From Litoreibacter albidus (lineage in GTDB: Bacteria > Pseudomonadota > Alphaproteobacteria > Rhodobacterales > Rhodobacteraceae): a stretch of DNA of 64,000 nucleotides. Of the stretch, positions 6,653 to 59,998 are shown in pieces. The notes below the pieces were generated by a model, which saw only the letters and a list, made by a program, of their open reading frames with translations, was not told where the DNA came from and ran no database searches. The position numbers and the translations under genes were made by a program. The DNA lies in the NCBI RefSeq assembly GCF_900107015.1, contig NZ_FNOI01000001.1, positions 2,501 through 66,500 of the forward strand. Direction: 5' to 3'. The first letter of the stretch is position 1, and each line of letters begins with the position of its first letter.

Positions 6653-7620
6653 CCTCCGGAAATAATGTTATCGAAAACGCTAAGGACCGCGGGGCCGATC
6701 AGCACGACGAATACGGCGGGCATGATGCAAAAGATCAGCGGTATAGTCATGATGACGGGTAGGCGTGCGGCCTGCTCTTCAACGGCCATCATCCGATTGG
6801 CACGTTGCTCCGATATTAATGTCCGCATCGCGCGCGAGAACGGGGTGCCGTAGGTGTCGGATTGGTCTAGCGTTTGTGTGAATACGCCGATTTCCGGCAG
6901 CGGCACGCGGGTGTTCAGGCGCTCATACGCGTTGCGGCGATCATTGGTCATACGCATCTCGGACACCATCTGCAGAATTTCGCGGGCCAATTCGGGGCTG
7001 GTGCTGGCCAACTCCAGCGCGACACGATGTAAGGCCGGTTGTGGCCCCAGTCCTGCCTCGGATGAAATCACCAAAAGCTCCAACAGATCAGGGAAGCTGC
7101 GGCGGATGCTGCCAAGGCGCTTCTTCCGCTTGGCATCGACAACCATGTCCACGCCTTTTGATAGGGCGAGCGCTATGGCTATCACAGTTGCGGAGCGTTT
7201 CAGCATTGAGAGGTCGACCGCCGTCGTCGCAAAAACCCAAGCCATTCCGCCCACCACCGCGACAAGCGGTAGTACGGTTTTAAGGAAGGCGTAGATCAGC
7301 AAGGCATCGCGGCTTCTGTAGCCAGCGGAGGACAATAGCGCTGCCGTATCGTGGGCTTCTCCGCCAAGAACAACGGATACCCGTTCCCCCATCACGGCGA
7401 TTACTTTACGCGCGCTGGCCATTGCGTGCGCAAGGCTGCCACCGCGCACGCCCTTCGCCATCTCATGCCGCGACGGACCGGTGCCCGTTGCGCGCTTCAG
7501 CCGTGTTGCAAGCTGCGCGCGCTGCCGCTCGGTCTGGTAGAGCGCGGCGAATGCGAGCATTGCTAACACCAAGCCTGCGAAAGCCACCCAAAATACGTTT
7601 TGTGCAAATTGATCAGACAT
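6649..7620 (-). CDS. tadC: Tad pilus inner-membrane platform protein TadC
   Basis: The 323-residue protein belongs to the type II secretion F (GspF/TadC) family. It has an N-terminal membrane segment, paired helices around residues 100-145, the F-domain cytoplasmic helical region (FPDLLELLVISSEAGLGP ... EMRMTNDRRNAYERLNTRV) and C-terminal membrane helices (IMTIPLIFCIMPAVFVVLIG). With TadB it forms the platform on which the CpaF ATPase acts. Its start overlaps the tadB end by 8 bases and its stop overlaps tadE. Confidence 0.9.
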   Translation of the reverse strand: MSDQFAQNVFWVAFAGLVLAMLAFAALYQTERQRAQLATRLKRATGTGPSRHEMAKGVRGGSLAHAMASARKVIAVMGERVSVVLGGEAHDTAALLSSAGYRSRDALLIYAFLKTVLPLVAVVGGMAWVFATTAVDLSMLKRSATVIAIALALSKGVDMVVDAKRKKRLGSIRRSFPDLLELLVISSEAGLGPQPALHRVALELASTSPELAREILQMVSEMRMTNDRRNAYERLNTRVPLPEIGVFTQTLDQSDTYGTPFSRAMRTLISEQRANRMMAVEEQAARLPVIMTIPLIFCIMPAVFVVLIGPAVLSVFDNIISGG

Positions 7621-53532: not shown

Positions 53533-54512
53533 GCAAACGCCCCGTATTGATTGAATTGGACGCGCCCGCTGACGTCACCCCCGCAACAGCCCCCGTCATC
53601 GCGGATGAGGTGCCTCAAGGCCGCGCGATGCAATCTGTGGCGGCCATAGCTGCGCATCGCCCGTCTCGGTTGGCCAAGTTCTTCTGGTCGGCGCTGCTGG
53701 CCTTGGTCAGCTTTGTAGCCAGTGTCGCGGCATGGGACTTCGTGAACGGTTTGCTTGAACGCAGCCCCGTGTTGGGCGCCGTCGCCGTGGGGCTGACTGG
53801 GCTTTTTGTCCTCTCCTTGCTGCTGATTGCGGGTAAGGAATGGCTGGCCATCGGCCGGTTGAAAAAGATCGACGGTTTGCGAAAAGACGCAGATGCGGCG
53901 CTGGCGGGGGGGGATCTGACTGCATCACGCGCGGTATCCACGCGGCTGATGACGCTTTATGCGCACCGCCCTGAACTGGAGGCGGGTCGCGCAGCGGTCA
54001 CCGCGCGCAGTGCCGACGGCTTTGATGCGGACGCGGTGCTGGGCGTGGCAGAGATGCAATTGCTTGCCCCGCTCGATGCCTTAGCGCGTCAAGAGGTGGA
54101 GGCGGCGGCGCGACGGGTCGCCACGGTCACGGCGATCGTACCCTTGGCGCTGGCTGATCTTGTGACCGCGTTGACCTCAAACCTGCGCATGATCCGGCGC
54201 ATTGCCGAAATCTATGGCGGGCGTTCAGGCACCTTGGGCAGTTGGCGCCTTACGCGGGCTGTGCTTACGCATCTGGTGGCAACTGGCGCCGTCGCGGTGG
54301 GCGACGATCTGATCGGCTCCATCGCGGGGGGCGGGGTGCTCTCAAAACTGTCGCGTCGCTTCGGGGAAGGCGTAATCAACGGCGCATTAACTGCCCGCGT
54401 CGGGGTTGCGGCGATGGATGTGTGCCGCCCGTTGCCCTATGTGACGCAAGACCGCCCGTCAGTCACGGGGCTGGTGCGCCGCGCGCTAACGGGGCTGTTC
54501 CCCGCTGGCTAA
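53529..54512 (+). CDS. ycjF: YcjF-family membrane protein (TIGR01620/UPF0283)
   Basis: The 327-residue protein has an acidic N-terminus, two membrane helices (about 48-68 and 78-100) and a C-terminal region (ATVTAIVPLALADLVTALTS, RFGEGVINGALTARVGVAAM) with the PLALADL segment known from this family. It partners YcjX and overlaps its stop by ATGA. It converges with the FAD monooxygenase gene at a shared CTAA. Confidence 0.9.
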   Translation: MSKRPVLIELDAPADVTPATAPVIADEVPQGRAMQSVAAIAAHRPSRLAKFFWSALLALVSFVASVAAWDFVNGLLERSPVLGAVAVGLTGLFVLSLLLIAGKEWLAIGRLKKIDGLRKDADAALAGGDLTASRAVSTRLMTLYAHRPELEAGRAAVTARSADGFDADAVLGVAEMQLLAPLDALARQEVEAAARRVATVTAIVPLALADLVTALTSNLRMIRRIAEIYGGRSGTLGSWRLTRAVLTHLVATGAVAVGDDLIGSIAGGGVLSKLSRRFGEGVINGALTARVGVAAMDVCRPLPYVTQDRPSVTGLVRRALTGLFPAG

Positions 54513-55690
54513 TCGCGAGGTGTCAGGGACGCCATCGGCGGGATCATATTCCCGCGCACAAGACGTGTCAGCAGGTGCGGGATGGGTGGGATCTGGCTTG
54601 CCGGAAACAGGATGTGGTCACGGACAGCTGGCAAAATGCGGCTGTCCGATTGGTATTGCGGCGTGAAGGCCCACGACATCGCTTGATAAATGCGCACATG
54701 CCAGCGCCGCGCCATCGCATAGGCGGGCAGGGCGTCTTGCAGCGGATATTGGGCAATCGCACGGGCCAAGGCGGCGGCATCCAGCATCGCCATATTCGCC
54801 CCTTGTCCCAGTTGCGGAGACGCCTTGTGCGCCGCATCCCCGATAATCGCGAGGTTCTCGCCGTAAGGTTTGCGCAGCGTGCCGTGCGCATAACGCGCCA
54901 TCGTCATTTGGTCGTGGTCGGTGATTTGCTCGAAAATCGGGGCTGCGTCAGGCCAAAGTTGCGCGACCTCGGCCTGCCAATCCGAAATGGGGGCCGCGTA
55001 CCACGCGGCGTGCGCTCCCCGCGGCATGGACCAAAAAATAGACGCTTGTGCGACGTCCGATCCTGGTAAGGTGCCAGATGGCATGATGCCGATCATCCGG
55101 TCGGCGCGGCGATACACTTGGGTCAGTTGGTCTTTCGGGAGGCCGCAGTCCCGCCACGGAACGGTGGCCCAAATCGCACCATATGGCAGCGGTTTCGCAC
55201 GCATCTGGGACAGCGGCGACGACACGCCGGAGCTGTCGATGACCAAATCGAACGGCCCCTGAGGTGCGTGGTCAGAAAAGTGCAAGTGCCGATCCCTGAA
55301 GCCAATCAGCCGATGGGATGCGGTTATGGTAACACCCGCGCCAAGCGCCGCCTGAAATATGGCGTCAAATAGCGATGCACGGTGAATGGCCAGCCCCACG
55401 TGTGTGCCCGCAGGGTCGTGGTCATAGGTCACGTCCAATACGCGGCGGCCAGAGTTGGCCTCGTGCCCCAGCATACGCCGGATCGCGTTGCCCTTCGCGC
55501 GCGCGGCGTCACCCGCGCCGATCTCATCTAGCACGGCTTGCCCGACGGGCTGGATCACCAGACCGGAGCCAACAGGACGCGGTCGGTCGAACTGGTCAAA
55601 GATGGTGACGGAATGCCCTTGCTGGGCCAAAAGGGTCGCGGCGGTCAGGCCGCCAATGCCTGCACCGGCAATCGCAATCGTATAACTCAT
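54509..55690 (-). CDS. FAD-dependent monooxygenase/oxidoreductase
   Basis: The 393-residue flavoprotein has the FAD-binding IAGAGIGGLTAATLLAQQGH at the N-terminus (GxGxxG), the DxS/G-type segment FDLVIDSSGVSSPL and the third FAD motif NLAIIGDAAHKASPQLGQGA. This is the aromatic-ring hydroxylase (PHBH-like) fold. Substrate unknown. It lies just upstream on the DNA of, but downstream in transcription from, the trHb gene, 55 bases away on the same strand, and may share its transcript. Confidence 0.9.
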   Translation of the reverse strand: MSYTIAIAGAGIGGLTAATLLAQQGHSVTIFDQFDRPRPVGSGLVIQPVGQAVLDEIGAGDAARAKGNAIRRMLGHEANSGRRVLDVTYDHDPAGTHVGLAIHRASLFDAIFQAALGAGVTITASHRLIGFRDRHLHFSDHAPQGPFDLVIDSSGVSSPLSQMRAKPLPYGAIWATVPWRDCGLPKDQLTQVYRRADRMIGIMPSGTLPGSDVAQASIFWSMPRGAHAAWYAAPISDWQAEVAQLWPDAAPIFEQITDHDQMTMARYAHGTLRKPYGENLAIIGDAAHKASPQLGQGANMAMLDAAALARAIAQYPLQDALPAYAMARRWHVRIYQAMSWAFTPQYQSDSRILPAVRDHILFPASQIPPIPHLLTRLVRGNMIPPMASLTPRD

Positions 55691-55744: not shown

Positions 55745-56155
55745 CTAAAGCGTTGGCGGCGCGTGTTCGGGCGTGCGCAGGTCTTCGACGCCCATCCGCA
55801 AGCCGCGCGCAATACGGTGCGCAAGGGCGGAGAACGCACGCGCGGTGTCTGGCGGCAGCTCCGCCATCAGCGTCTTGTCGAACAGCCCCAGCCAATGCGG
55901 GAAGTGTTCCGCTTGCACGTTGCGCGCGGCCATGTGCTTTTGCATGGGGTTCCCGTCATAAATCCGCTCGTACAAAATGGCGTTGCGCCAAAAACTAGCG
56001 ATCTTCGCTTCATGGGCGGGCCAGACGTCGCGCGGCACATGGGCAGCAAACACTGGCGCCAGAACCGGATCACGGCGAACGGCGGCATAGAATTTATTGA
56101 CCACCCGTTCAATTTGTGCGGCGGTGATGTCAAACCTTGGTGGCATGGCCGTCAT
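55745..56155 (-). CDS. Group III truncated haemoglobin
   Basis: The 136-residue protein has the truncated globin pattern: QIERVVNKFYAAVRRDPVLA, FAAHVPRDVWPAHEAKIASF, FWRNAIL, the probable proximal His in HFPHWLGLFDKTLMAELPPD (H of the HFPHW segment) and a later ALAHRIARGLRMG helix. Group III trHbs bind oxygen or nitric oxide. The ATG at 56155 overlaps the stop of the small membrane gene upstream (ATGA), so the two are coupled. Opposite lies an NsrR-like gene, which supports a nitric oxide link. Confidence 0.87.
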   Translation of the reverse strand: MTAMPPRFDITAAQIERVVNKFYAAVRRDPVLAPVFAAHVPRDVWPAHEAKIASFWRNAILYERIYDGNPMQKHMAARNVQAEHFPHWLGLFDKTLMAELPPDTARAFSALAHRIARGLRMGVEDLRTPEHAPPTL

Positions 56156-56325
56156 AGAATAATCCACAAGACGGGCAATAAGACACACAGATAGACCAAC
56201 ATGTTAAACATGGAACGGATGAGCCCCATGTCATCCGCAGGCGGGATGCCCAACAGGTTGCAGATCTTGGTGCCGGGCCAAAGCAGGAATTCAGTGACTT
56301 TTTCTGCGGTGGTTGCGGTGGTCAT
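56152..56325 (-). CDS. Small membrane protein coupled to truncated haemoglobin
   Basis: The 57-residue protein starts MTTATTAEKVTEFLLWPGTK and ends in one hydrophobic helix (MFNMLVYLCVLLPVLWIIL). The start at 56325 excludes an upstream extension to 56391 that would run through the operator region. Its stop overlaps the trHb start (ATGA). Function unknown; it may anchor the haemoglobin to the membrane. Confidence 0.72.
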   Translation of the reverse strand: MTTATTAEKVTEFLLWPGTKICNLLGIPPADDMGLIRSMFNMLVYLCVLLPVLWIIL

Positions 56326-56377
56326 CGGGATGCCTCTTATAATGGGTATTTCGGATGCGGAATATCTAGCGCTTTTA

Positions 56378-56400
56378 ATTGCGCATTTCAAATGCTAATA
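56378..56400. promoter_or_regulatory. Candidate NsrR-type operator between trHb operon and nsrR
   Basis: The core GCATTT-C-AAATGC (56383-56395) is a perfect inverted repeat around one central base, within an 11-1-11 arrangement like the NsrR site of enterobacteria (arms ending ...GCATTT). It lies between the divergent small membrane gene (start 56325) and nsrR (start 56407) and so could control both. The match outside the core is partial. Confidence 0.6.
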
Positions 56401-56406
56401 TTTGGT

Positions 56407-56865
56407 ATGCAACTGGATAAATTCACGGACTACGGGCTGCGGGCCTTGATTTACCTTCGGCTGTGCGGCGCTCGTCGGGCGTCCGTCGCAGAAATCGCGG
56501 CTAAATTCCACCTTTCCGAACATCATCTGTCGAAGGTCGCCACGGCATTGGCAGCGGACGGATTTGTGGTGTCCTCGCGCGGACGGGCGGGCGGCTTGAG
56601 CTTGGCCAAACCCGCAAGAGACATCAGCATAGGTGCGGTCGTGCGCCGCTTAACGCGCAACGTTGCGGTGGCGGAATGCTTCGCGCAGAACGGGGCCTGC
56701 GCAATATCGCCCGCCTGCGGGTTGCGCGGCCCGTTGGCCGAGGCGCAGGAGGCGTTCTTCAAGGTGCTGGATGGCTACAATCTGGCTGATGTCAGCGGGC
56801 AGGGTGCGGCACTGTCGAAACTGCTGGGCGTTGATGATCCAAGTGCACTGGACGAAACCGTCTAG
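56407..56865 (+). CDS. nsrR: Rrf2-family, NsrR-like regulator
   Basis: The 152-residue protein has an Rrf2 winged HTH (MQLDKFTDYGLRALIYLRLC, AEIAAKFHLSEHHLSKVATA, SRGRAGGLSLAKPA) and three Cys, Cys91, Cys98 and Cys104, that can hold an iron-sulphur cluster. Spacing is C-x6-C-x5-C, close to the C-x4-C-x5-C of E. coli NsrR. With the divergent haemoglobin operon and a palindrome before its start, it is probably a nitric oxide sensor. ATG 56407 fits the family start; ATG 56392 is less likely. Confidence 0.85.
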   Translation: MQLDKFTDYGLRALIYLRLCGARRASVAEIAAKFHLSEHHLSKVATALAADGFVVSSRGRAGGLSLAKPARDISIGAVVRRLTRNVAVAECFAQNGACAISPACGLRGPLAEAQEAFFKVLDGYNLADVSGQGAALSKLLGVDDPSALDETV

Positions 56866-57019
56866 CCAAGGCTATAAGCCCCACATGACATACAACATCG
56901 TCATTATTCGAATTATATCCCCGGCGCTCTGATCAAGATGAGACGCCGGGCAAAGGTGTTTGAGCTGCTCGCACCGACCCCACTCCGATTTTCAAATCCG
57001 AAGACAAAGGACGCCAGAC

Positions 57020-59998
57020 ATGTGCGCCGACACCCCTGAGACTGTTTCCTACAAAGACACGCTGAACCTACCTAAAACCGACTTCCCGATGCGCGCAGGC
57101 CTGCCCAAGCGCGAGCCCGGCTGGCTGGAGCGTTGGGCCAAGATCGGCGTCTACGACCAGCTGCGCGAAAAGGCGAAAAGCCAGCCGCGCAAACCCTTCA
57201 CGTTGCACGACGGTCCGCCCTACGCCAACGGCCACCTGCACATCGGCCACGCCTTGAACAAGACGATCAAGGACATGATCGTGCGCTCGCACCAGATGAT
57301 GGGGTTTGACGCACGCTACATCCCCGGTTGGGATTGCCACGGTCTGCCGATCGAATGGAAGATCGAGGAAAAGTACCGCTCCAAAGGCAAAGACAAAGAC
57401 GCCGTCGATGTTGTCGAATTCCGTCAGGAATGCCGCGAGTTTGCCGCAGGGTGGGTCGACATCCAGCGCGAGGAGTTCAAACGTCTTGGCATCACCGGCA
57501 ACTGGGATGACCCGTACCTCACGATGAACTTCCATGCCGAGCGCGTAATCGCGGAGGAATTTCAAAAGTTCCTGATGAACGGCACCCTCTATCAAGGCTC
57601 CAAGCCTGTGATGTGGTCGCCGGTAGAAAAGACCGCTTTGGCAGAAGCGGAGGTGGAGTACCACGACCACAAGTCTGATATGATCTGGGTGAAGTTCCCC
57701 GTGGTCGGCGTTGCTGGCACGGAAGCCTTGGTCGCTGAAATCACTGGCGGTGATGACAACAAAACCTCCGCCGCTGCGCAGGAAATCGGCGCAGATTTTG
57801 CCAACACCAATGTGGTGATCTGGACCACGACGCCGTGGACCATCCCGCAAAACCGCGCGGTCTGTTTCGGCCCGAAGATCAGCTACGGCCTGTATAAGGT
57901 CACCGACGCCGCAGAGGACAACTGGGCGAAAGTCGGTGAGAAGTATCTGGTCGCGGACGCATTGGCCGAGGGCATATTTGCACAGGCCCGCGTTGAGGGC
58001 TTTGAGCGCTTGCGCGATGCATCCCCCGCCGTGCTGGAGGCCCTGACCCTGAAGCACCCGCTGCGCGGTGTGCCGAACGGACAAGGCGAATGGGACTACG
58101 ACGTCCCAATGCTCCCCGGCGATCACGTGACGGAAGAGGCCGGTACAGGTTTCGTTCACACAGCACCTAGCCACGGCGACGACGACTACCAGATCGGCGT
58201 AAAGTTCGGCCTTCCAATGACATATAACGTCATGGAAGACGGCTCTTACCGCGCCGACTTGCCGCTGTTTGGTGGTAAACGCATCCTGAAGCCGAACGGC
58301 AAAGAAGGCGACGCGAATAAGGCCGTGATAGAGGTGTTGGCATCGGGCAATCTGCTGATGGCGCGCGGGCGCCTGACGCACAGCTACCCGCACTCTTGGC
58401 GCTCCAAGGCGCCAGTGATCTACCGCAACACGCCGCAATGGTTCGCGGCCATCGACAAAGAGGTCGGCGACGGTCAGGACACGCACGGCAAAACCATCCG
58501 TGAACGCGCGTTGACCGAGATCGATAACGTGAAATGGACCCCGCGATCAGGCCGCAACCGCCTGCACTCCATGATGGAGGCACGCCCCGACTGGGTGTTG
58601 TCGCGTCAACGTGCATGGGGCGTGCCGCTAACCTGCTTTACCAAGGTGGGCGCGTTGCCGGACGCAGATGATTTCTTGTTGCGAAACGAAGAGGTCAACG
58701 CCCGCGTGCTGGAGGCCTTCGAGGCCGAAGGCGCGGATGCATGGTACAAAGAGGGCGCGAAGGAACGCTTCTTGTCCGGCATCGTGAACCCAGACGATTA
58801 CACCCAAGTGATGGACATTCTCGATGTGTGGTTCGACTCCGGTTGTACACACGCCTTCACCCTGCGCGACCGCGAAGATGGCTCCGAAGACGGCATCGCG
58901 GACGTCTACATGGAAGGCACCGACCAACACCGCGGCTGGTTCCACTCCTCGTTGCTGCAATCCGTCGGTACCACAGGCCACGCGCCTTACCGCAACGTGG
59001 TCACACACGGGTTCACGCTGGATGAGAAGGGCATGAAGATGTCCAAATCCATCGGCAACACCATCGTGCCGGAAAAAATCGTGCAACAATACGGCGCAGA
59101 CATCTTGCGTCTTTGGGTGGCTCAAACCGACTTCACGCAAGACCAGCGTATCGGCGATGAAATCCTCAAAGGTGTGGCTGACAGCTACCGTCGCCTGCGC
59201 AACACCATGCGTTTCATGTTAGGCTCTTTGAACGACTTCTCTGAGGCTGACCGCATGGATCCGGCGGATATGCCGGAGCTGGAGCGTTGGGTTCTGCACC
59301 GCCTGTCCGAGTTGGACGAGGTTGTGCGCGACGGCTACGCAAAGTTCGACTTCCAAGGCGTGTTCCAAGCGATCTTCACCTTCGCGACGGTGGATTTGTC
59401 CGCGTTCTACTTTGATATCCGCAAGGATGCGCTGTACTGCGACGGCGATACCGCGCGACGCCGCGCGGCACGCACGGTTCTGGACATTCTGTTCCACCGC
59501 CTGACATCGTGGCTGGCCCCGATCCTGGTGTTCACCTGCGAGGAAATCTGGCTGGAACGCTTCCCGGGCGATGCATCTTCGATCCACCTGACAGACATCC
59601 CCGAGACGCCGGCCGACTGGCGCGACGCCGAACTGGCTGCCAAATGGGCTACCGTGCGCAAGGTGCGCCGCGTGGTCACTGGCGCGCTGGAGGTCGAGCG
59701 CACGGCGAAGGTCATCGGCTCCTCTCTGGAGGCAGCACCAGCGGTCTACGTCGGGGCAGATGTCGCGGATGTGTTGAAGACGGTGAACTTTGACGACATG
59801 TGCATCACGTCCGGCATCAACGTATCGACAGACGCCGCCCCCGAAGGCGCGTTCACGCTGGATGACGCCGAAGGCGTCGCTGTCGTGTTCGGCAAGGCGG
59901 ACGGCGACAAATGTCAGCGCTGTTGGAAAATCCTGCCTGACGTCGGCACGCACACCCATGAGGGTGTCTGCCAGCGTTGCGACACGGCGCTGGATTAA
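57020..59998 (+). CDS. ileS: Isoleucyl-tRNA synthetase
   Basis: The 992-residue class I synthetase has the HIGH signature in YANGHLHIGHALNKTIKDMI, an editing domain (about 200-400, with VVIWTTTPWTIPQNRAVCFG), the KMSKS loop GMKMSKSIGNTIVP and a C-terminal zinc-type Cys set (CQRCWKILPDV ... CQRCD). ATG 57020 has AAAGGA about 8 bases upstream; the frame runs up to 56960. Length is normal for the bacterial enzyme. Confidence 0.96.
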   Translation: MCADTPETVSYKDTLNLPKTDFPMRAGLPKREPGWLERWAKIGVYDQLREKAKSQPRKPFTLHDGPPYANGHLHIGHALNKTIKDMIVRSHQMMGFDARYIPGWDCHGLPIEWKIEEKYRSKGKDKDAVDVVEFRQECREFAAGWVDIQREEFKRLGITGNWDDPYLTMNFHAERVIAEEFQKFLMNGTLYQGSKPVMWSPVEKTALAEAEVEYHDHKSDMIWVKFPVVGVAGTEALVAEITGGDDNKTSAAAQEIGADFANTNVVIWTTTPWTIPQNRAVCFGPKISYGLYKVTDAAEDNWAKVGEKYLVADALAEGIFAQARVEGFERLRDASPAVLEALTLKHPLRGVPNGQGEWDYDVPMLPGDHVTEEAGTGFVHTAPSHGDDDYQIGVKFGLPMTYNVMEDGSYRADLPLFGGKRILKPNGKEGDANKAVIEVLASGNLLMARGRLTHSYPHSWRSKAPVIYRNTPQWFAAIDKEVGDGQDTHGKTIRERALTEIDNVKWTPRSGRNRLHSMMEARPDWVLSRQRAWGVPLTCFTKVGALPDADDFLLRNEEVNARVLEAFEAEGADAWYKEGAKERFLSGIVNPDDYTQVMDILDVWFDSGCTHAFTLRDREDGSEDGIADVYMEGTDQHRGWFHSSLLQSVGTTGHAPYRNVVTHGFTLDEKGMKMSKSIGNTIVPEKIVQQYGADILRLWVAQTDFTQDQRIGDEILKGVADSYRRLRNTMRFMLGSLNDFSEADRMDPADMPELERWVLHRLSELDEVVRDGYAKFDFQGVFQAIFTFATVDLSAFYFDIRKDALYCDGDTARRRAARTVLDILFHRLTSWLAPILVFTCEEIWLERFPGDASSIHLTDIPETPADWRDAELAAKWATVRKVRRVVTGALEVERTAKVIGSSLEAAPAVYVGADVADVLKTVNFDDMCITSGINVSTDAAPEGAFTLDDAEGVAVVFGKADGDKCQRCWKILPDVGTHTHEGVCQRCDTALD

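Follow-up and report, generated by a model that had tools for sequence, protein, structure and literature searches.

A small membrane protein without a known family in a probable NsrR-like unit of Litoreibacter albidus

In Litoreibacter albidus, an NsrR-like regulator of the Rrf2 family diverges from a two-gene operon encoding a small membrane protein, here called sm, and a truncated globin (Table 1). A single NsrR-type switch at this one locus probably controls sm and the globin; we put the probability of this reading at about 0.75. The switch is ordinary in kind, and the interesting part of the finding is sm, a predicted membrane protein without a known family that stands in an NsrR-like unit. 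The window, that is, the whole 64,000-nucleotide stretch of DNA that was analysed, contains the complete unit and its neighbours.

The preliminary description had coupled a 57-residue membrane protein to the globin, and this stands: sm has that length, and the two reading frames share four bases, the globin start lying in the sm stop (ATGA). The interval given there took in sm, the spacer, and the regulator and left out the globin. The first in-frame ATG of the regulator is at 56392, and the start was placed at the ATG of Table 1. Operator 1 stops 5 bases short of this codon, and the -35-like element of sm lies within it; operator 2, recognisable only through comparison with relatives, takes in the final two bases of the -10-like TAGATA together with the sequence that follows. 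The promoter-like stretch was identified by eye and from the conserved columns of the aligned spacers, and an automatic sigma-70 promoter scan gave no match at the predicted sm promoter. Beyond the globin, the gene for a FAD-dependent monooxygenase-like protein is a possible member of the operon. Its homologue also adjoins the globin in L118, L129, and L130, all three without the switch. In several relatives this gene is kept next to the globin or facing ileS, and its product could be a redox partner.

Table 1. Features of the sm-globin locus, in positions of the window
Feature	Position	Strand	Remarks
FAD-dependent monooxygenase-like gene	54509-55690	-	54 bases after globin
Group III truncated globin, 136 aa	56155-55745	-	Start overlaps sm stop (ATGA)
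sm, predicted membrane protein, 57 aa	56325-56152	-	
Operator 2	56340-56364	+	Inverted relative to operator 1; model match 20.5 bits
Promoter-like stretch of sm-globin operon	56363-56391	-	TTGAAA, 17 bases, TAGATA
Operator 1	56377-56401	-	Holds the reported palindrome; model match 56377-56399 (positions 3-25 of 25), 21.9 bits
Rrf2-family regulator, 152 aa	56407-56865	+	Start ATG 56407 chosen
ileS	57020-59998		Downstream of regulator; TIGR00392 812.9 bits, cut-off 621.4

A perfect palindrome had been reported between the divergent genes, and it is indeed present, GCATTTCAAATGC at 56383-56395 being the sole perfect match in the window. What had been described as one palindrome is, however, part of a pair of operators, namely two inverted 25-bp dyads with centres 37 bp apart; in the aligned spacers, TTAGCATTTGnAATGCG lies close to the regulator and CGCATctnAAATaCc 37 bases further. 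The genome search suggested earlier returned one exact copy of the palindrome in 3,576,820 bases, and with one mismatch allowed it returned five other places, compared with four for a reversed-pattern control. With a single exact site and one-mismatch sites at the level of the control, the exact palindrome was discarded as uninformative for finding a regulon. Absence of the palindrome from relatives with the same gene pair had been named as a refutation. The exact 13-mer is usually missing there: of 32 regions upstream of sm, three have it (L007, the region of the window itself, L017, and L041). These relatives nevertheless conserve a degenerate operator, so that the absence of the exact palindrome does not refute the unit. 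A chance match, in favour of which the scarcity of the 13-mer may be cited, is exceedingly improbable given that the degenerate operator is both conserved and doubled.

When 46 sites from 23 regions are set to one orientation, the dyad reads TAWTnnGYATTTnnrATGCGnAWTA. Its core matches that of the published NsrR consensus, gATGyAT-N5-ATrCATc in the accessible part of the source (PMC1274295), and the outer ATG...CAT is replaced by TAWT...AWTA, which counts against an NsrR-type switch. Of the 32 upstream regions (near-copies included), 27 contain the core GyAT-N5-ATrC, and 21 contain it at least twice. The five regions without it are L015 and L022, which have another Rrf2 type, L020, which has HTHP just upstream, and L043 and L053, where sm is alone; five further loci (L050, L051, L052, L054, and L055) gave no upstream region because the extraction required WPG. 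In 23 non-redundant regions, related by descent, the core was found 42 times, compared with a mean of 0.59 and a maximum of 4 in 1000 dinucleotide shuffles. These regions derive from the 26 of 32 that were chosen for holding TAGCATT or TGGTATT, with near-copies then removed, so the presence of at least one core in all 23 is not an unbiased count; two cores occur in 19, and doubling played no part in the choice. At L015 and L022 the different Rrf2 type, about 40% identical, precedes sm and the globin in the same direction, and ATACATGTA repeats are seen by eye in place of the 25-bp dyad.

A sequence-only model of the operator gave three matches at E ≤ 10 in the L. albidus genome, all at the sm locus (150 of 951 first-look candidates scored). 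Among 21 genomes of the same genus, best E values range from 1.3e-4 to 8.6e-4 in the seven that possess the unit, all of which carry both sites at E ≤ 0.5; five of these seven (L007-L010 and L013) supplied training sites to the model. The other 14 have no match below 0.04. Weak sites (E 0.02-0.5), read as noise, turned up in nine of these 14 and, away from the unit, in four of the seven that possess it.

The model was also applied to the family sample of 394 genomes, one per genus. At E ≤ 0.1, 16 of its 23 sm loci have both sites, 14 of these being the same places as the training regions; one locus (L051) has a single weak site, and none was found at L035, L043, L049, L053, L054, or L055. An Rrf2 gene adjoins sm at 15 loci, and 14 of these have both sites; L037 and L046 make up the rest of the 16. 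The one Rrf2-bearing locus without twin sites, L035, carries the other Rrf2 type. Twin sites also occur at two loci outside the training set, L160 (the place of L052) and L158 (the place of L050). At the 16 globin loci without sm that are discussed below, no match was found at E ≤ 1. Three loci, L049, L051, and L054, speak against the switch: there, sm and the globin occur with at most one weak operator, and Rrf2 is missing from the surrounding 1.5 kb. A third, near-perfect operator lies at L158:7632-7654, before a second globin gene (globin profile E 4.5e-19, no Pfam match at 1e-4), and the unit is present in the same genome; a HTHP gene (L158, about 7173-7385, minus strand) stands across this operator and points away from it.

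The regulator matches Pfam Rrf2 (PF02082) at 107.6 bits (cut-off 30). On the NCBIfam NsrR model it reaches 110.9 bits, below the equivalog cut-off of 182, and on the RirA model 103.7 bits, below the cut-off of 193; on the NsrR model, E. coli NsrR scores 292.8 and a Sphingopyxis homologue beside hmpA 141.1. Because the NsrR cut-off is missed, the regulator is called NsrR-like rather than NsrR. This shortfall and the nearly equal RirA score weigh against an NsrR-type switch, as does a tree of 24 Rrf2 proteins, in which 3 of 21 inner branches are well supported and NsrR is not separated from RirA. The best PDB match is NsrR 5n07 (E 5.1e-18), and the identity is 41% to E. coli NsrR, 35% to S. meliloti RirA, and 22% to E. 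coli IscR. Three cysteines for a cluster had been proposed, and they can be named among the four present (20, 91, 98, and 104): the spacing is C91-x6-C98-x5-C104, compared with C-x4-C-x5-C in E. coli NsrR. Furthermore, the recognition-helix stretch LSEHHLSK is closer to VSRNHMVK of E. coli NsrR and VPYTHAAK of Streptomyces NsrR than to VSELFLFK of RirA or ISLSYLEQ of IscR, and it shares with the two NsrR proteins the HxxK pattern, which is absent from RirA and IscR. The protein is thus classed as NsrR-like. A PF02082 search of the genome gave five matches, four above the cut-off; two other full-domain Rrf2 proteins were read as IscR-like and as lacking the Cys cluster, respectively.

Another explanation is that the signal is iron, Fe-S status, or redox instead of NO, which would make the regulator similar to RirA or to RsrR (the name reportedly given to a putative NsrR homologue of Streptomyces venezuelae). 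The closeness of the two NCBIfam scores is in its favour, as is the report, in the accessible part of PMC5015018, that the S. venezuelae protein is a new member of the Rrf2 superfamily. We regard this explanation as unlikely, because the operator core and the recognition helix are NsrR-like and genes of NO metabolism neighbour the unit in relatives.

The genomic surroundings support the NsrR-like nitric oxide response unit proposed earlier: apart from the NsrR-type operator core, hmpA, nirK, nnrS, and hemerythrin genes occur near relatives of the unit, and the genome itself has nirK, a nor-type cluster, and nnrS. Next to relatives of the unit, L022 has hmpA and DUF6522, L023 has hemerythrin and nirK, with cbb3 oxidase genes 3-6 kb off, L024 has hemerythrin and cbb3 genes, and L020 has HTHP near sm. 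None of hmpA, DUF6522, hemerythrin, nirK, cbb3, or HTHP is among the neighbours in L021, and L019 carries no annotation. More distant Rrf2 homologues adjoin a group III globin and hmpA (L065), a globin (L067), hmpA (L070), or ccoNOQP (L064), and no annotated globin is found near those of L066, L068, L069, and L071. L065 has a canonical NsrR site and L064 has the core; the exact core was not found in L066, L067, L069, L070, or L022.

On another contig of the L. albidus genome, nirK (above the curated cut-off) is accompanied by nnrS, nnrU, and a Crp/Fnr regulator. The same contig encodes a NorQ-family ATPase, a COX1-family protein, a cytochrome c, and a VWA-domain protein, with their genes arranged as would be expected for norCBQD. 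NCBIfam assigns no nor name to the COX1-family protein, the cytochrome c, or the VWA-domain protein, and the names norC, norB, and norD therefore rest on order and reading. With nirK, a nor-type cluster, and nnrS in its own genome, NO is a plausible signal. No operator was found in the nirK-nor stretch at E ≤ 2, so the sm unit is not the main NO regulon of the cell.

The globin scores 22.4 on Pfam Bac_globin (cut-off 21), and a PDB search at E ≤ 0.01 gave a single match, 2ig3, the group III globin Ctb of Campylobacter jejuni (E 2.9e-13). Tyr23, His48, and His74, invariant in 13 rows, correspond in the alignment to Tyr19, His46, and His72 of Ctb, which we take to be positions B10, E7, and F8. 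On five annotated plasmids, the neighbours of sm are named as group III truncated globins, and the protein of the window is likewise assigned to group III.

These elements can be combined into the following mechanism. A dimer of the regulator, with an Fe-S cluster on Cys91, Cys98, and Cys104, would bind both operators as long as NO is absent. Operator 1 would cover the -35 region of sm and directly precede the regulator start, and operator 2 would cover the start region of the sm promoter; from this placement, we propose that both directions are repressed. NO, arising from the cell's own NirK or from outside, would nitrosylate or destroy the cluster, the repressor would leave, and sm and the globin would be made together. 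The globin may then remove NO or handle NO/O2 chemistry, and sm, placed in the inner membrane by the same response, may act on a membrane partner or dock to it, whether or not the globin takes part. The role of sm is inferred from the company of its gene.

The sm protein has the motif LWPGTKxC..hG..P..D.GLIR.M.N..Y, followed by a C-terminal hydrophobic helix, residues 39-57 being its most hydrophobic 19-residue stretch. P17, G18, C22, G26, P29, R37, N41, and Y45 are kept in 26 aligned sequences, and in five Litoreibacter, the nearest named relatives, the protein is 71-75% identical to that of the window. The predicted structure consists of helices 6-14, 16-24, and 34-56 (mean pLDDT 73, pTM 0.41). 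The spacing of R37, N41, and Y45 would put them on one face of the helix, which suggests a contact within the membrane.

No significant family was found for sm in Pfam or NCBIfam, nor a significant PDB sequence or fold. The best matches are at chance level: DltX at E 0.062 (1 of 17 members), cyanobacterial PGR5 at E 0.029 (best of 4 of 26 members), a PDB sequence at E 0.92, and a PDB fold at E 3.9. No relative was found on viral contigs. A class-wide search returned sm in 5 of 385 genomes, three inside the family; outside it, the match in L184 is convincing by eye, and that in L185 was rejected as part of a longer reading frame that seems to encode an unrelated enzyme. Distant sm-like proteins with the pattern PG...G...D.G..R.F.N are encoded in L184 (about 1455, minus strand) and in L053/L018 (near 1500); one is outside the family, and no NO genes were recognised near them. 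A wider family may thus exist. One member of the family count, L055 (E 0.004), lacks the conserved Cys and is probably false, and it is still included in the count of 23.

In the family sample, sm is encoded in 23 of 394 genomes (L055 included), and the globin profile matches 174, the weaker of which may represent other groups of globins. A globin lies within 1.5 kb at 19 of the 23 sm loci and an Rrf2 gene at 15, which makes the globin the commoner neighbour of sm. All 15 Rrf2-bearing loci also have the globin, and L046, L049, L051, and L054 have sm and globin without Rrf2 within 1.5 kb. In 29 of 30 sm-globin pairs judged by eye, near-copies included, the globin could start at a codon that overlaps the sm stop (ATGA, GTGA, TTGA, or TGATG), L036 being the exception; some pairs also allow an ATG a few bases later.

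When globin loci were ranked by a profile built from sm-associated globins, 14 of the best 30 had sm (13 with Rrf2 and 13 with the operator core). The other 16 had no sm, no Rrf2 in their 1.5-kb flanks, and no operator core in 250 bases; at 13 of them a divergent ileS start lies within about 0.8 kb, like in the window. On the globin tree, the sm label needs about four changes, a result compatible with gain of the switch or with its loss in other lineages. In the 21 genomes of the same genus, 20 ileS loci were found, of which 7 carry the unit and 13 lack all three genes, so that the three are present or absent as a block; the flanks of L135-L137 show the regulator only, with the remainder of the unit in L010-L012. 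At 8 of these 13 loci, the monooxygenase gene faces ileS directly.

How do these distributions bear on the function of sm? One possibility is that sm is a dedicated membrane partner or anchor of the globin, the two being made together from overlapping frames and the globin working at the membrane, near the respiratory chain. The widely available overlapping start and the preference of sm for the globin over Rrf2 as a neighbour argue for it, as do L049, L051, and L054, where sm stays with the globin though Rrf2 is missing. For three of the sampled sm loci that lack an adjoining globin, a match to the globin profile is found elsewhere in the genome (G259 for L037/L159, E 2.2e-24; G282 for L043, E 6.6e-55; G037 for L053, E 1.1e-27). 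On the other side, the globin occurs in many more genomes than sm and does not need it, sm is missing at 16 of the 30 best globin loci, and sm stands without an adjoining globin at L037/L159 (with HTHP and NnrS), L043, L053, and the plasmid L019. The membrane anchor put forward in the preliminary description is not supported as an obligatory role, because the globin is common without sm; an optional partnership, favoured by the adjacency and the frame overlap, is plausible. We put the dedicated partner or anchor somewhat short of an even chance.

Alternatively, sm may be an independent membrane protein of the NO stress response that, for instance, modulates a terminal oxidase, an NO reductase, or another respiratory complex or serves it as a small accessory subunit, with the globin as a merely co-regulated neighbour; we would place this tentatively just short of an even chance. 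The joint absence of sm, regulator, and operators at the 16 globin loci fits with it, and so do cbb3 oxidase genes 3-6 kb from two plasmid copies of sm. At L159:4525-7200, sm heads a HTHP-DUF6522-NnrS-NnrU operon that has both operators and no globin. Moreover, the invariant R37, N41, and Y45, at i, i+4, and i+8 of the predicted transmembrane helix, exceed what a plain anchor needs, but this helix face is read from spacing, and the sm model is of moderate confidence. The more frequent adjacency of sm to the globin than to Rrf2 and the widely kept frame overlap also count against an independent role. The two explanations may overlap. HTHP was considered as a regular partner of sm and rejected: it occurs in 49 of the 394 genomes, and sm is within 1.5 kb at only 1 of the 30 HTHP loci examined.

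A bolder and rather improbable proposal would make sm an undescribed family of NO-induced small membrane proteins that dock soluble heme proteins, the group III globin in most lineages and HTHP in others, onto a membrane respiratory complex and supply or control the electrons of these heme proteins, so that a globin without a reductase can turn over NO. Single-domain bacterial globins have no reductase, and what reduces them in the cell is, to our knowledge, still to be established. With a gene that overlaps the globin gene and shares its NsrR-like operators, sm is a concrete candidate for a globin partner; the sm loci without a neighbouring globin and the globin loci without sm are natural controls, and with the operator model an NsrR-like switch in Rhodobacteraceae can be tested precisely.

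A separate observation concerns the region between the regulator and ileS. An isoleucine-rich short ORF, MTYNIVIIRIISPAL, precedes ileS at 56885-56932 (+), and its stop lies inside the left arm of a GC-rich hairpin at about 56920-56950. Counted without a shuffled control, 31 of 35 loci have a short ORF with at least three Ile before ileS, and 27 of these ORFs end in PAL; for the window, the automated count took a longer frame with a non-ATG start. The leader region folds with z -2.2 and has no Rfam match at E ≤ 1. By its sequence, the ORF with the hairpin looks like an isoleucine attenuator of ileS, on which the literature matches listed contained nothing specific.

In the literature, of which few subscription papers were covered, no title or abstract start among the matches listed names this unit, and no paper was found that joins NsrR, truncated hemoglobin, and Rrf2. 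PMC4319818, in its accessible part, deals with a group II globin. In Campylobacter, Ctb is also governed by NssR. This Crp/Fnr-type regulator controls the nitrosative-stress globin Cgb, according to the part of the source available, whereas the regulator here belongs to Rrf2. The L159 operon resembles the unit in having sm as first gene and both operators, and differs in that no globin or Rrf2 gene was found within 1.5 kb of sm. The closest parallel is NsrR-hmp as described by Rodionov et al. in 2005 (PMC1274295), whose accessible text reports no NsrR orthologue in alphaproteobacteria except that of R. capsulatus E1F1. As far as that text goes, the two systems share an Rrf2 regulator beside a globin gene, the GyAT-N5-ATrC core, and neighbours from NO metabolism, and they differ in the target, which is the flavohaemoglobin hmp there and a single-domain group III globin with sm here. 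The unit described here further differs in its two inverted 25-bp operators with TAWT ends and in a regulator that scores below the NCBI NsrR cut-off.
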